Shown: positions 11,748 to 17,854 of the stretch, piece by piece
Layout: the number at the start of each line of letters is the position of its first letter
Numbering within the stretch: the stretch's first letter is position 1
Assembly: GCA_029976065.1 (NCBI GenBank)
Contig: JARKNV010000071.1
Span: 1-64,000, forward strand
Origin: Selenomonadales bacterium
GTDB lineage: Bacteria > Bacillota > Negativicutes > Sporomusales > UBA7701
DNA length: 64,000 bases
Direction of reading: 5' to 3'
Translations under genes and position numbers: made by a program
The notes under the pieces: generated by a model
The model's input: the letters and a program-made list of their open reading frames with translations, nothing else
The model's database searches: none
Told to the model about the DNA's origin: nothing

Positions 11748-12333
11748 AGGCTTTCACCTCCGCGAAGCCCTTGCTGTAGAGGGCGGATACGGGCAGGACG
11801 GTGGCCTGGTGAAAAGCGGCCGTAAGCCGGGCGACATTCTCGCGGGCCGCCGGCAGATCGGTCTTGTTGGCGAGCATGATATAGCGGTTGCGGGCAATGC
11901 CGAACTGATAAATCTCCCGGTCGATATTGGCCTCGCCGGCCAGGCAACTGTCCGTCGCCAGGGCGGCGTCGACGATATGGATAATGAAGTCGGTGCCGCG
12001 CAGGAGGCTGAGCGTCTGGGCCATGCCGCGCCTCACCGCTTCTTCGCCGTGGATCTGCTCGCTCACGCCGCAGGTGTCGGTGAGCTTGAAACTCACGGCC
12101 GTCTTGCCGACCGGCACCTTCAGGACCAGCGACTGCACGGCCCGCGTCTTGTGAATCATCGGCCCGCACAGCTCGCGCTTCGCCTCGGCGATGCCGAAGT
12201 GGCGGCAGTCGAGCAGCCCGTCCGGGGCCCGGAAGGTTATATCGGCGGTCTTGCAGCCGAGAAAGGCGGCAAAATTCAGGGTGAACAGCGTTTTGCCGGA
12301 ATTGGGCCGGCCGACGACGGCGAATTCTTTCAT
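11728..12333 (-). CDS. small GTPase of the spoVK operon
   Basis: A 201-residue P-loop GTPase with G1 GRPNSGKT, G3-like DTCG, and G4 NKTD; the C-terminal SALYSKG resembles G5. It is a stand-alone G domain without an added RNA-binding region. The ATG at 12333 follows GGAGG and overlaps the spoVK stop as ATGA, so translation should be coupled to spoVK. Position and coupling suggest a role in spore formation, but this is inference. In the current arrangement its natural upstream promoter is 5.5 kb away behind the intervening element, and no internal promoter is obvious. Confidence 0.8.
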   Translation of the reverse strand: MKEFAVVGRPNSGKTLFTLNFAAFLGCKTADITFRAPDGLLDCRHFGIAEAKRELCGPMIHKTRAVQSLVLKVPVGKTAVSFKLTDTCGVSEQIHGEEAVRRGMAQTLSLLRGTDFIIHIVDAALATDSCLAGEANIDREIYQFGIARNRYIMLANKTDLPAARENVARLTAAFHQATVLPVSALYSKGFAEVKACVAGNV

Positions 12334-12731
12334 CCTTCCACCTCCGGGAGGTCGCACGGCTCAATGACCATAAGCTCCTCGCGGGTCAGGTTCGTTTTGG
12401 ACACCAGCCTTACCGCCTGCCGCCTGAGCGCTTTTTCGATAATATTGCGGACCGTGCGGGCGTTGCCGAAATTGTCGTCATCGCGATTGGCGGGCGGATT
12501 GAGCATCCTGAGGAGCGCCAGGCGGGTCTGGGCGGTGAGCTGATACTGGCGCCTGGCGCATAGCTGTTCGGCGATCGCCAGCAATTCCTGCTGGCTGTAA
12601 TCGGGGAAATCGATGTGTATGGGGAACCGGGAGCGCAGCCCGGGGTTGGTCTGGAGGAACTTTTCCATCTCGCGCTGGTAGCCGGCGAGAATCAGGACAA
12701 GTTCATCCTTATGGTCCTCCATGTATTTGAC
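12330..12731 (-). CDS. spoVK: spoVK 3' part (split gene, C-terminal AAA+ segment)
   Basis: About 133 codons of the C-terminal part of the SpoVK AAA+ ATPase, starting at VKYMEDHKDELV. It carries the sensor-1 region LILAGYQREM, arginine-finger region NPGLRSRF, and sensor-2 region GNARTVRNIIEKA, but no Walker motifs. The missing N-terminal part lies at 17288-17854 in the same orientation. There is no ATG or ribosome site, only an in-frame TTG contributed by the element, so it is unlikely to be translated alone. Joining the parts at the shared ACCA restores the reading IDCMVKYMEDHK, as in intact SpoVK proteins. Confidence 0.93.
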   Translation of the reverse strand, partial: VKYMEDHKDELVLILAGYQREMEKFLQTNPGLRSRFPIHIDFPDYSQQELLAIAEQLCARRQYQLTAQTRLALLRMLNPPANRDDDNFGNARTVRNIIEKALRRQAVRLVSKTNLTREELMVIEPCDLPEVEG

Positions 12732-12733
12732 CA
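12725..12733. repeat. left attachment core of the spoVK element
   Basis: ATTTGACCA, matched by ATTTCACCA at 17296-17304 (8/9). The predicted crossover dinucleotide is AC (12730-12731), inside the spoVK Val codon. Confidence 0.75.
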
Positions 12734-12758
12734 AACAGTGTAAAAAAAATAGCCGTAC

Positions 12759-12938
12759 TCAGCCTTGCCGAGACGGCGAGCCGTCGGTGCCGACGGTTGA
12801 ATGAGATGTTTTGTTGCCTGGCGTCGCGGTCAGCCGGCGGCGTACGCCCTCGACCAGCGGCCGCAAAAAGCTCGGTCCGTGGCGGTTCTCCTCCCACTTG
12901 CCCGTATGGCGGATGGTTACGGTGTCGGGCCGGGTCAT
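12759..12938 (-). CDS. short hypothetical reading frame at the left end of the element
   Basis: A 59-codon frame with an ATG preceded at five bases by GAGGTGG, a good ribosome site. The product is basic (IRHTGKWEENRHGPSFLRP, EGVRRRL) and has no recognised motif. It points away from the recombinase gene and ends 26 bp from the attachment core. It could be a recombination directionality factor, a gene remnant, or non-coding. The 330 bp between the element end and the recombinase hold nothing else recognisable except the promoter candidate at 12957-12986. Confidence 0.3.
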   Translation of the reverse strand: MTRPDTVTIRHTGKWEENRHGPSFLRPLVEGVRRRLTATPGNKTSHSTVGTDGSPSRQG

Positions 12939-16383: not shown

Positions 16384-16407
16384 AGACAACGCAAAGGAAC
16401 GGTGCAA

Positions 16408-17274
16408 ATGACGCTCGCGAACAACGATCTGCCCGCTTTACCACAGGACTGCGATTTCGTGGCCCTCGACTTTGAAACAGCCAACCGCGAATGGACAAGC
16501 ATCTGCGCCATCGGGCTGGCGTTCGTCGCCGGCGGCCGGGTGGTCGCCAACCCTTCGTGGCTGGTCCGGCCGCCGCAACTCGTGTTCGACCCCGGCTTCA
16601 TCAAAATCCACGGCATCACCGCCGACCAGGTGGCCGACAAGCCCGAATTCTGCGACCTATGGCCCGAACTCAGGCAGCACCTCGAAGGGCGGATAATCGT
16701 CGCCCACAACGCCGAATTCGACGTCAACGTCCTCATCCAGGCCCTCGACCTCTATCACATTCCCCGCCCCAGCGCCGAATACTCCTGCACGAAAATCATC
16801 GCCCAGCGCACCTGGCCGGGCTGGCGGCGCTACGGGCTGGCGGCCCTCGCCGAACGGCACGGCATCGTCTTCCGCCACCACGACGCCGGCGAGGACGCCA
16901 ATGTCTGCGCGCAGGTCGCGCTCAGGGCCTGCGCGGAGAAAAGCGCAGCCGATTTCGGCCGGCTGCACGATACGCTTAACATCACCCGCGGCCGCATCTA
17001 CCCGGGCGGCCACGATAAACTCCGCGAAGGCAATATTATTCTCCCCGCCTTCGGCCCCTGGGAAAGCCGCCTGCACAGCCGCGCCGAGCAGGTCAAGCGC
17101 CAACAGCGGGCCATCGAGATCGAAGGCGCCGTTGTCGACCCGGCGGCGGGCACGGGCGTGGTCAACGGCTACGACGTGACGCTCGGCAGCTGCACCTGCG
17201 CCGACTTCCAGGGTCGGAAACTGCCCTGCAAGCACATCTATAAGCTCTACTTCGAACTGCAAAAAGGCTGCTGA
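16408..17274 (+). CDS. DEDDh 3'-5' exonuclease with C-terminal SWIM zinc finger
   Basis: A 288-residue DnaQ-fold exonuclease. ExoI is DFETAN, ExoII HNAEFDVNVL, and ExoIII HHDAGEDANV, giving the D-E-D-D-H set. The C-terminal 35 residues carry a SWIM motif (CTCADF then LPCKHIYKLY, i.e. CxC...CxH), usually a DNA- or protein-binding finger. The combination suggests a nuclease targeted to particular DNA structures. ATG at 16408 lies nine bases after AAAGGA; a GTG at 16402 is the alternative. It is the last gene in the element, ending 26 bp before the right attachment core. Role in element upkeep, excision or defence is not known. Confidence 0.85.
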   Translation: MTLANNDLPALPQDCDFVALDFETANREWTSICAIGLAFVAGGRVVANPSWLVRPPQLVFDPGFIKIHGITADQVADKPEFCDLWPELRQHLEGRIIVAHNAEFDVNVLIQALDLYHIPRPSAEYSCTKIIAQRTWPGWRRYGLAALAERHGIVFRHHDAGEDANVCAQVALRACAEKSAADFGRLHDTLNITRGRIYPGGHDKLREGNIILPAFGPWESRLHSRAEQVKRQQRAIEIEGAVVDPAAGTGVVNGYDVTLGSCTCADFQGRKLPCKHIYKLYFELQKGC

Positions 17275-17289
17275 CAAGCAGCTTTTTTT
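17261..17289. terminator. bidirectional terminator at the right end of the element
   Basis: Stem GCTGCT (17267-17272) / AGCAGC (17277-17282), loop GACA, flanked by A5 and T7. It ends the exonuclease transcript and would also stop minus-strand transcripts entering from the 5' part of spoVK. Confidence 0.82.
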
Positions 17290-17854
17290 ATTGCGATTTC
17301 ACCATGCAATCAATTGCCTCTTTGCCGAAATCCTTCTCGCCGCCGCGGGCCAGCGAATAAGCCTCGTCAATGAACAGTATGCCGCCGTACGCCTTTTTTA
17401 GCTGTTCCCGCGTCTTTTGGGCCGTATGGCCGATGTATTCGCCGACGAGGTCGGCCCTCTCCACCTCGATCAGATGGCCGCGGCTGAGCACGCCCATCGC
17501 CCGGAATATCTTGCCCATTATCCTGGCCACGGTGGTTTTGCCGGTGCCCGGATTGCCCTTGAAGATCATGTGCATCACGAGCGGCTCGGTGGCGAGCCGC
17601 TCTTTTTGGCGCCACTTCTGGATTTCGATGAAGGCGTAGATTTCCTTCACCAGCCGTTTGACCTCGTTCAAGCCGATGAGGTCGTCGAGCTCCCGAAGGA
17701 TTTCGTCCACCCGGTGCTGCTGGGCGCCGTTGTCGGCTTTGACAGACGGCGCGGCGACGGTATCCATTTCTCGCAGGAGCCGGCACGCCTCGACCGGCGG
17801 CAGTTCGCCGGCCTCGACCGCCGCCAGGACATCCTTTGGCCATAGGTACGGCAT
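17288..17854 (-). CDS. spoVK: spoVK 5' part (split gene, N-terminal AAA+ segment)
   Basis: N-terminal part of the sporulation AAA+ ATPase SpoVK. It contains Walker A FKGNPGTGKTTVAR, HLIEVERADLVGEYIGHTAQKT, and Walker B ILFIDEAYSLARGGEKDFGKEAID. It then reads MVK, two codons from the element and a TAA, so the ATPase lacks sensor 1, the arginine finger and sensor 2 and should be inactive. The start at 17854 is favoured because a sigma-E-like -10 overlaps the upstream ATG at 17893. With the 3' part it would be about 317 residues, against 322 in B. subtilis. In B. subtilis spoVK is expressed in the mother cell and is needed for spore maturation. Confidence 0.93.
   Translation of the reverse strand: MPYLWPKDVLAAVEAGELPPVEACRLLREMDTVAAPSVKADNGAQQHRVDEILRELDDLIGLNEVKRLVKEIYAFIEIQKWRQKERLATEPLVMHMIFKGNPGTGKTTVARIMGKIFRAMGVLSRGHLIEVERADLVGEYIGHTAQKTREQLKKAYGGILFIDEAYSLARGGEKDFGKEAIDCMVKSQ
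17296..17304. repeat. right attachment core of the spoVK element
   Basis: ATTTCACCA; partner of ATTTGACCA at 12725-12733. The predicted crossover dinucleotide AC is at 17301-17302. The distance between cores is 4,571 bp, which is not a multiple of three. Confidence 0.75.

Follow-up and report, generated by a model that had tools for sequence, protein, structure and literature searches.

The window, the whole stretch of 64,000 nucleotides analysed here (Selenomonadales bacterium, GenBank assembly GCA_029976065.1, contig JARKNV010000071.1, positions 1 to 64,000), raises the question of why the sporulation gene spoVK lies in it as two pieces. Both pieces are on the minus strand, at 17302-17854 and 12330-12731, and are separated by 4,571 bp of intervening DNA that encodes a large serine recombinase (Table 1). 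Comparison of this locus with several hundred genomes indicates that spoVK is very probably interrupted by a skin-type element, similar in build to the element in sigK of Bacillus subtilis, which would excise itself in the sporulating mother cell.

A preliminary description made from the letters alone had reported two spoVK halves in the same orientation, and both were borne out. In the integrated state the 5' frame runs three residues beyond the junction codon into the element, to a stop at 17288. When the halves are joined at a GT dinucleotide (AC on the plus strand), which belongs to a Val codon of spoVK, an in-frame SpoVK of 317 amino acids is obtained, as had been predicted; the junction is expected to read GCATGGTCAAATAC. 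The N half represents the AAA core (positions 2-136 of the TIGR02881 profile) and the C half the lid domain (positions 133-261). The joined protein scores 418.5 bits against TIGR02881 (positions 2-261), 4.5 bits below the curated cut-off of 422.95; the 22 single-frame homologues of the class score 397-430 bits, and 12 of them likewise fall under the cut-off by the tool's tally. Profile coverage and the neighbours miaA, hfq and hflX suggest the name SpoVK-like for the joined protein.

Distribution of the split gene

The preliminary description recommended a comparison of spoVK in related genomes, and the same split was found to recur. In all 6 genomes examined of the window's family, which represent two genera, the split in spoVK falls at the same place. 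Among 28 genomes of the order, 14 are split, 11 are intact, one is frameshift-like and two are without a match. Within a class sample of 300 genomes, spoVK is split at the same codon in 25, intact in 22 and frameshift-like in 1 (G006); the remainder have no match of SpoVK grade, so that 25 of 48 SpoVK-bearing genomes are split. For these counts, scoring covered the best 8 first-look candidates of each genome, the second half in G038 was found separately, and full-length AAA+ matches of 321 bits or less were not counted as SpoVK. Both halves were seen in 23 of the 25 split genomes; G085 and G089 show one half each, at a contig end, and were kept among the 25 and left out of the junction and arm counts. 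The split genes are spread over seven families (f1, f3, f6, f12, f16, f19 and f25), and a single genus, g11, includes 5 split and 4 intact genes. The frameshift-like gene of G006 was rejected as an element split, for it consists of two overlapping adjacent pieces with no element.

The recombinase shows nearly the same distribution. Orthologues of at least 546 bits exist in 26 of the 300 class genomes (best 5 candidates per genome scored), namely the 25 split genomes, where one sits inside each element, and G064, in which spoVK is intact. The copy in G064, of 51% identity (locus L144, G064:C92:1-5000), adjoins an asparagine synthase gene whose 3' end is apparently cut, possibly another interrupted gene; the B. 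subtilis gene asnO is under sigma-E, and its expression is increased by SpoIIID (PMC517825). In a phylum sample of 398 genomes, with the best 3 candidates per genome scored, no orthologue was found besides the window's own, the next two being 41% identical.

Of these 398 genomes, 278 have a spoVK match, and 8 with a weak best score were followed among the matches listed; further splits in other classes are thus possible. One of them, G408, belongs to another class; a 75.6-kb element (G408:C60 5637-82096) interrupts its spoVK at the same codon and carries a 30%-identical serine recombinase beside the second half, as well as genes for conjugation (TraG, TrbL and a type IV secretion system coupling protein). 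A second candidate outside the class, G673, was rejected, as its two contigs share an 18-bp overlap across the GT junction, indicating an intact gene at an assembly break. The break in G673 (L171/L172) falls exactly on the spoVK junction.

One split gene has a different arrangement. In G017 (contig C4) the halves are inverted, at 442892-443278(+) and 734636-735043(-), 292 kb apart on the same contig. They may be rejoined by inversion rather than excision; the alternative is an assembly error.

Junction and attachment arms

All 24 loci with two halves (23 of the class and G408) join in frame at GT; G673, whose contigs overlap through the junction, is left out of this count. The junction codon of the intact genes is GTN in 21 of 22. 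When the ends of the 24 elements are reconstituted, a mean of 16.96 of 30 positions are complementary around GT, compared with 8.2-10.8 at shifts of 1 to 6 and 8.9 (standard deviation 2.5) for shuffled arms. Within 8 bases, no other centre does as well as GT in 17 of 24 elements, and GT ties in 2. The 24 in-frame joins at the same GT, together with the average centring of the inverted repeat upon it, place the case above chance. It can be seen that GT is marked as the probable crossover by the element set as a whole, and that the window alone would not show it.

The 9-mer ATTT[G/C]ACCA, to which the preliminary description had pointed, is indeed shared by both ends; as evidence it is unremarkable and was dropped, because a third copy occurs in the window at 62024. 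An intron was also considered as the interrupting DNA and was ruled out: no Rfam match reaches its gathering score in 12300-17900, and the ends resemble attachment (att) sites.

Selection and translation of the halves

If the insertion were dead, spoVK would be a pseudogene in a lineage that had lost sporulation or did not need the gene. The gene is in fact disrupted in the chromosome, and some clostridia are described as lacking spoVK (PMC3533761). Evidence against decay comes, however, from the ratios of nonsynonymous to synonymous substitution (dN/dS). In ten split pairs these range over 0.016-0.121 for the whole gene, 0.019-0.121 for the N half and 0.013-0.142 for the C half, compared with 0.037-0.10 for the whole gene in five intact pairs, two of which have a synonymous divergence of about 2, near saturation (the intact pair G025/G026 was not divided into halves). 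Both halves are under purifying selection comparable to that of intact genes. The joins are in frame in all 24 loci, the recombinase frame is without stops in all 25 class elements, and both spoIIID (135.6 bits, cut-off 111.5) and a full-length gene of the sigK type (355.7 bits, cut-off 298.65) are present in the window's own genome. The argument against simple decay made in the preliminary description is therefore upheld by the selection on both halves and the in-frame joins, and a dead insertion appears extremely improbable. A second intact spoVK, which that description had set against its proposal, was not found by profile search in the 88%-complete own genome, where the other six hits score 22.5 bits or less.

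Such constraint through the divergence of genera would be unexpected unless spoVK were read as one protein. Instead, each half could be translated on its own and the two could form a two-piece ATPase; in favour of this are GTG or TTG codons at the start of the 3' half in some genomes and an internal ATG in all 24 loci. Yet no conserved start with a ribosome-binding site precedes the 3' half in the 24 loci (one Shine-Dalgarno-like match occurs, in G061), and an in-frame stop lies 9-213 nt ahead of it; separate translation is unlikely for both reasons. Moreover, the tail of the first half consists of att-arm and element sequence, 1 to 44 residues in length, intact relatives hold the same residues in one chain, and the att arms centred on GT would be left unexplained. 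A two-piece enzyme can hardly be credited, and restoration of one continuous spoVK by excision remains the preferred explanation.

A candidate directionality factor under proposed developmental control

In Clostridioides difficile, a small recombination directionality factor, CD1234, is under sigma-E and SpoIIID and limits skin excision to the mother cell (PMC5025042); for this reason the promoter-like patterns before a small gene in the spoVK elements are read as likely developmental control. A candidate small gene was found in 18 elements. Ten f6-type elements have a gene of about 50 amino acids, with the motif PIVKITLLNYDP...FMSPLIEGLLKR, directly before the recombinase on the same strand, and in the eight f1/f3 elements a small gene points away from the recombinase. 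A profile seed built without f1/f3 sequences reaches G009 (f3) with an E-value of 0.0019 and G005 (the window's family, other genus) with 0.017, suggesting that the two types of small gene are probably homologous.

CATACAMT is the -10 sequence of sigma-E promoters and GGACAAG the SpoIIID box. Patterns of this kind precede the small gene in 21 of 25 class elements in total. The pattern GACAA-N-CATA..[AT]T is present before the small gene in 9 of 10 f6-type elements, these being among 19 matches in 693,094 strand-bases of 27 loci. GGACAA-N-CATAAACT occurs once per locus in 7 f12 loci, its sole matches in 192,810 strand-bases; the check for a small gene behind this box covered five of them, and the longest open reading frame (ORF) of G031 starts ahead of the box. 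AATA-N15-17-CATANANT is found in all five genomes of the window's genus, with one further match in the 64-kb window.

The following course of events is proposed. Both during growth and in the forespore, the element would stay integrated and spoVK would be off. In the mother cell, sigma-E, joined by SpoIIID in most families, would activate the small gene that adjoins the recombinase. The encoded protein would serve as a directionality factor, with which the recombinase would cut attL and attR and rejoin them at GT. A circle of 4,571 bp would be released, and the restored spoVK would be transcribed from its own sigma-E-like promoter. As the mother cell dies, the spore would inherit the interrupted gene. 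The spoVK gene of B. subtilis is served by a sigma-E and a sigma-K promoter and is counted as a mother-cell gene on that account; its mutant is one of three exceptions to normal sporulation (PMC517825).

Alternatively, the element might excise at some rate in all cells, as an ordinary mobile element or by phase variation, independently of the mother cell. The recombinase family has a phage-borne relative, described below, the C. difficile skin recombinase is made in all cells (PMC5025042), and intact and split relatives exist within genus g11. Against excision in any cell stand the sigma-E/SpoIIID-like patterns before the small gene and the split in all 6 genomes examined of the window's family, where the integrated form is thus the inherited form. 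Such excision is considered improbable, and excision confined to the mother cell is retained as the better account.

Several observations weigh against mother-cell excision as proposed. The role of the small gene as directionality factor is deduced by analogy, the small gene of the window's genus is reached only with the sequence of the window's own genome (G000) in the seed, and f12 elements carry an unrelated small gene of 57 amino acids (seen in five genomes). The promoter patterns were composed after the sequences had been inspected; G005, G008, G009 and G015 match none of those run on them, and the window's genus is without a SpoIIID-like box. Regarding the junction, a centre other than GT scores higher in 5 of 24 elements (G000, G005, G031, G067 and G408), besides the two ties, and the window's own arms score 13 at GT and 14 one base off. 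The window's genome is 88% complete with 6% contamination. The element is dispensable, since 22 of 48 SpoVK genomes carry none. Finally, the recombinases of f6, f16, f19 and f25 are not sorted by host family, an f19 copy grouping with f6 copies and one f6 copy with a copy from f16, a sign of exchange instead of strict vertical retention in this group.

History of the element

On the SpoVK tree, 12 changes between split and intact are needed, 7 of which are forced by well-supported branches; the number is still 12 with G673 labelled intact, and 11 without G673 and G408. The element thus came or went on several occasions. G017, G018 and G019 have very similar SpoVK genes, of which that of G019 is whole and the other two are split. 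The upstream spoVK flank of G017 matches neither G018 nor G019 past about 80 bp (L076, L078, L051). The recombinases fall into three clades, f1/f3, f12 and f6/f16/f19/f25, and within f1/f3 their tree closely follows the SpoVK tree. Recombinase and SpoVK distances are correlated over 23 genomes (r 0.687, reached in 0 of 2000 permutations), a correlation that shared host ancestry alone could explain. A single insertion followed by vertical descent alone was rejected, given the 12 tree changes and the one recombinase clade unsorted by family.

A phage contig (L175, IMGVR_UViG_3300021518_000003) encodes a recombinase 50% identical to the spoVK one and 55% identical to that of G064, with neighbours that look phage-like by eye. 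No spoVK halves were found within the 11.5 kb of it examined, and its best att-like palindrome, directly after the recombinase, is centred on TC. The relationship suggests that the spoVK recombinase derives from a phage integrase.

Comparison with known elements

As in the skin elements of sigK (SpoIVCA in B. subtilis, CD1231 in C. difficile), a large serine recombinase lies inside an element that splits a mother-cell sporulation gene, and there is a direct att core at which joining would restore the frame, the inverted halves of G017 being the exception. The skin of B. subtilis differs in its size of 48 kb (PMC517825), compared with 4.6 kb here, and its target is sigK, whereas the window's genome keeps a full-length sigK-type gene; here the target is spoVK and the host is likely a Negativicute, Selenomonadales being an order of that class. 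The gin element in gerE of B. cereus ATCC10987 (GirC, GirX) is likewise not a prophage and has a serine recombinase with a directionality factor of 42 amino acids, but it measures 28.6 kb and carries three recombinases (PMC5595907), compared with one in the window's element. Sporulation genes are also split by SPbeta in spsM (SprA, SprB), phi3T in kamA, vfbin in spoVFB, vrin in spoVR and yin in yabG. For several of these five, the site-specific recombination unit attL-int-rdf-attR has been demonstrated (PMC4191935, PMC6957869, PMC10747680). They are phages or phage-like, and occupy other genes in Bacilli or Clostridium. The prophage-like subclass (skin, SPbeta) is defined by phage structural or lysis genes; no phage structural gene was recognised among the 6 proteins of the window's element searched against PHROGs.

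The interrupted genes in the literature are sigK, spoVFB, spoVR, gerE, spsM, kamA and yabG (PMC5595907, PMC10747680, PMC4191935, PMC6957869, PMC5025042). The list in the preliminary description was therefore incomplete, as spoVR, kamA and yabG were missing from it (PMC10747680, PMC4191935, PMC6957869). Neither the candidate directionality factor nor the wide occurrence of the split figured in that description. The name spoVK does not occur in PMC5595907, PMC10747680, PMC4191935 and PMC6957869, and no report of a spoVK interruption was found in the titles and abstract openings of the searched literature, which covers few subscription papers.

Features of the window and other interruptions in the genome

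The features of the locus are collected in Table 1.

Table 1. Coordinates of spoVK, the interrupting element and their signals in the window
Feature	Position	Strand	Remarks
spoVK 5' half	17302..17854	-	Walker A and B; ends with the G of the GT core, inclusive
spoVK 3' half	12330..12731	-	AAA lid; GT core through stop codon
sigma-E-like -10 of spoVK, CATATAAT	17892..17899	-	by eye; same before spoVK in five f1 relatives
Inferred crossover dinucleotide GT, 5'-half junction	17301..17302	-	AC on plus strand
Inferred crossover dinucleotide GT, 3'-half junction	12730..12731	-	AC on plus strand
Large serine recombinase, 510 aa	13064..14596	+	Resolvase, Recombinase and zinc ribbon; antisense to spoVK; frame intact
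Candidate recombination directionality factor, 59 aa from ATG 12938	12759..12938	-	divergent from recombinase; weak homology to the small gene of the other families
sigma-E-like promoter of small gene, AATATGG-N14-CATATACT	12956..12984	-	5 of 5 genomes of the window's genus
Element-side att arm adjoining 5' half	17270..17300	-	13 of 30 positions complementary to other arm
Element-side att arm adjoining 3' half	12732..12762	-	reconstituted-end comparison
Cargo, 49-aa zinc-ribbon-like protein	14717..14866	+	Pfam and NCBIfam matches below cut-offs
Cargo, 199-aa DUF2271/FlgD-Ig-like protein	15000..15599	+	domain match
Cargo, 257-aa protein without Pfam match	15610..16383	+	common to 8 f1/f3 elements
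Cargo, 290-aa DnaQ-like 3'-5' exonuclease with SWIM zinc finger	16402..17274	+	common to 8 f1/f3 elements

A ribosome-binding site precedes the ATG at 17854, which is taken as the start of the N half; the longest N-half ORF opens at 17893, within the promoter-like CATATAAT (by eye). The three recombinase domains listed had been expected from the preliminary description. The best full-length match of the recombinase among solved structures is YokA, alone or with YotN (9dxh, 9dxd); YokA and YotN are presumably SprA and SprB. In PHROGs, the recombinase matches integrase, invertase and transposase, the exonuclease matches DNA polymerase, and the 49-aa protein has two matches of unknown function; the small gene, run from 12947, has no PHROGs match. 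The spoVK elements range from about 3.0 to 23.1 kb (20 measured), and the smallest, in G022 (about 3.0 kb), contains the recombinase, the small gene and one gene-like ORF of 170 amino acids (by eye). On the chromosome, hfq and miaA flank spoVK on one side and hflX on the other, with further genes intervening. The genome (G000) comprises 3.42 Mb in 82 contigs, the window being in contig C49.

Another gene of this genome, encoding a SipL/SPOCS domain and SH3, is split on contig C35 (about 42.2k-57.5k) by an element of about 15.3 kb (L173:5786-6445, L146:3894-6042). A serine recombinase beside its second part is 66% identical to the spoVK one over residues 3-205, and in 5 of 5 relatives the SipL-domain gene is a single uninterrupted frame. 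The spoVK interruption is shared through the family; the interruption of the SipL gene is seen only in the window's genome. A further serine recombinase (G000:C2:105872-107161) is 29% identical to the spoVK one.

Significance

Earlier examples of programmed DNA excision in the mother cell came from a scatter of genes in Bacilli and Clostridium. Of the sampled spoVK-bearing genomes of this class, about half (25 of 48) contain an element of skin build at one codon, with one recombinase family and cassettes down to about 3 kb. Systems of this kind were known before; what is new is the gene targeted, the class of the host, the small size of the element and how widely it occurs. Annotators are warned against taking such split copies of spoVK for pseudogenes, which they probably are not. 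Two dozen natural replicates, for which intact sister genomes exist, also allow parasites in a harmless home to be set against retained timing devices. It is possible, at somewhat less than an even chance, that spoVK plays in Negativicutes the part that sigK plays in Bacillus and Clostridioides, as an ancient developmental switch based on DNA splicing, long kept by small cassettes of recombinase and directionality factor. Its attB codon would be a magnet found independently by other elements, such as the 75.6-kb conjugative-type element in another class, and in G017 spoVK would be rebuilt by mother-cell inversion of a 292-kb segment.

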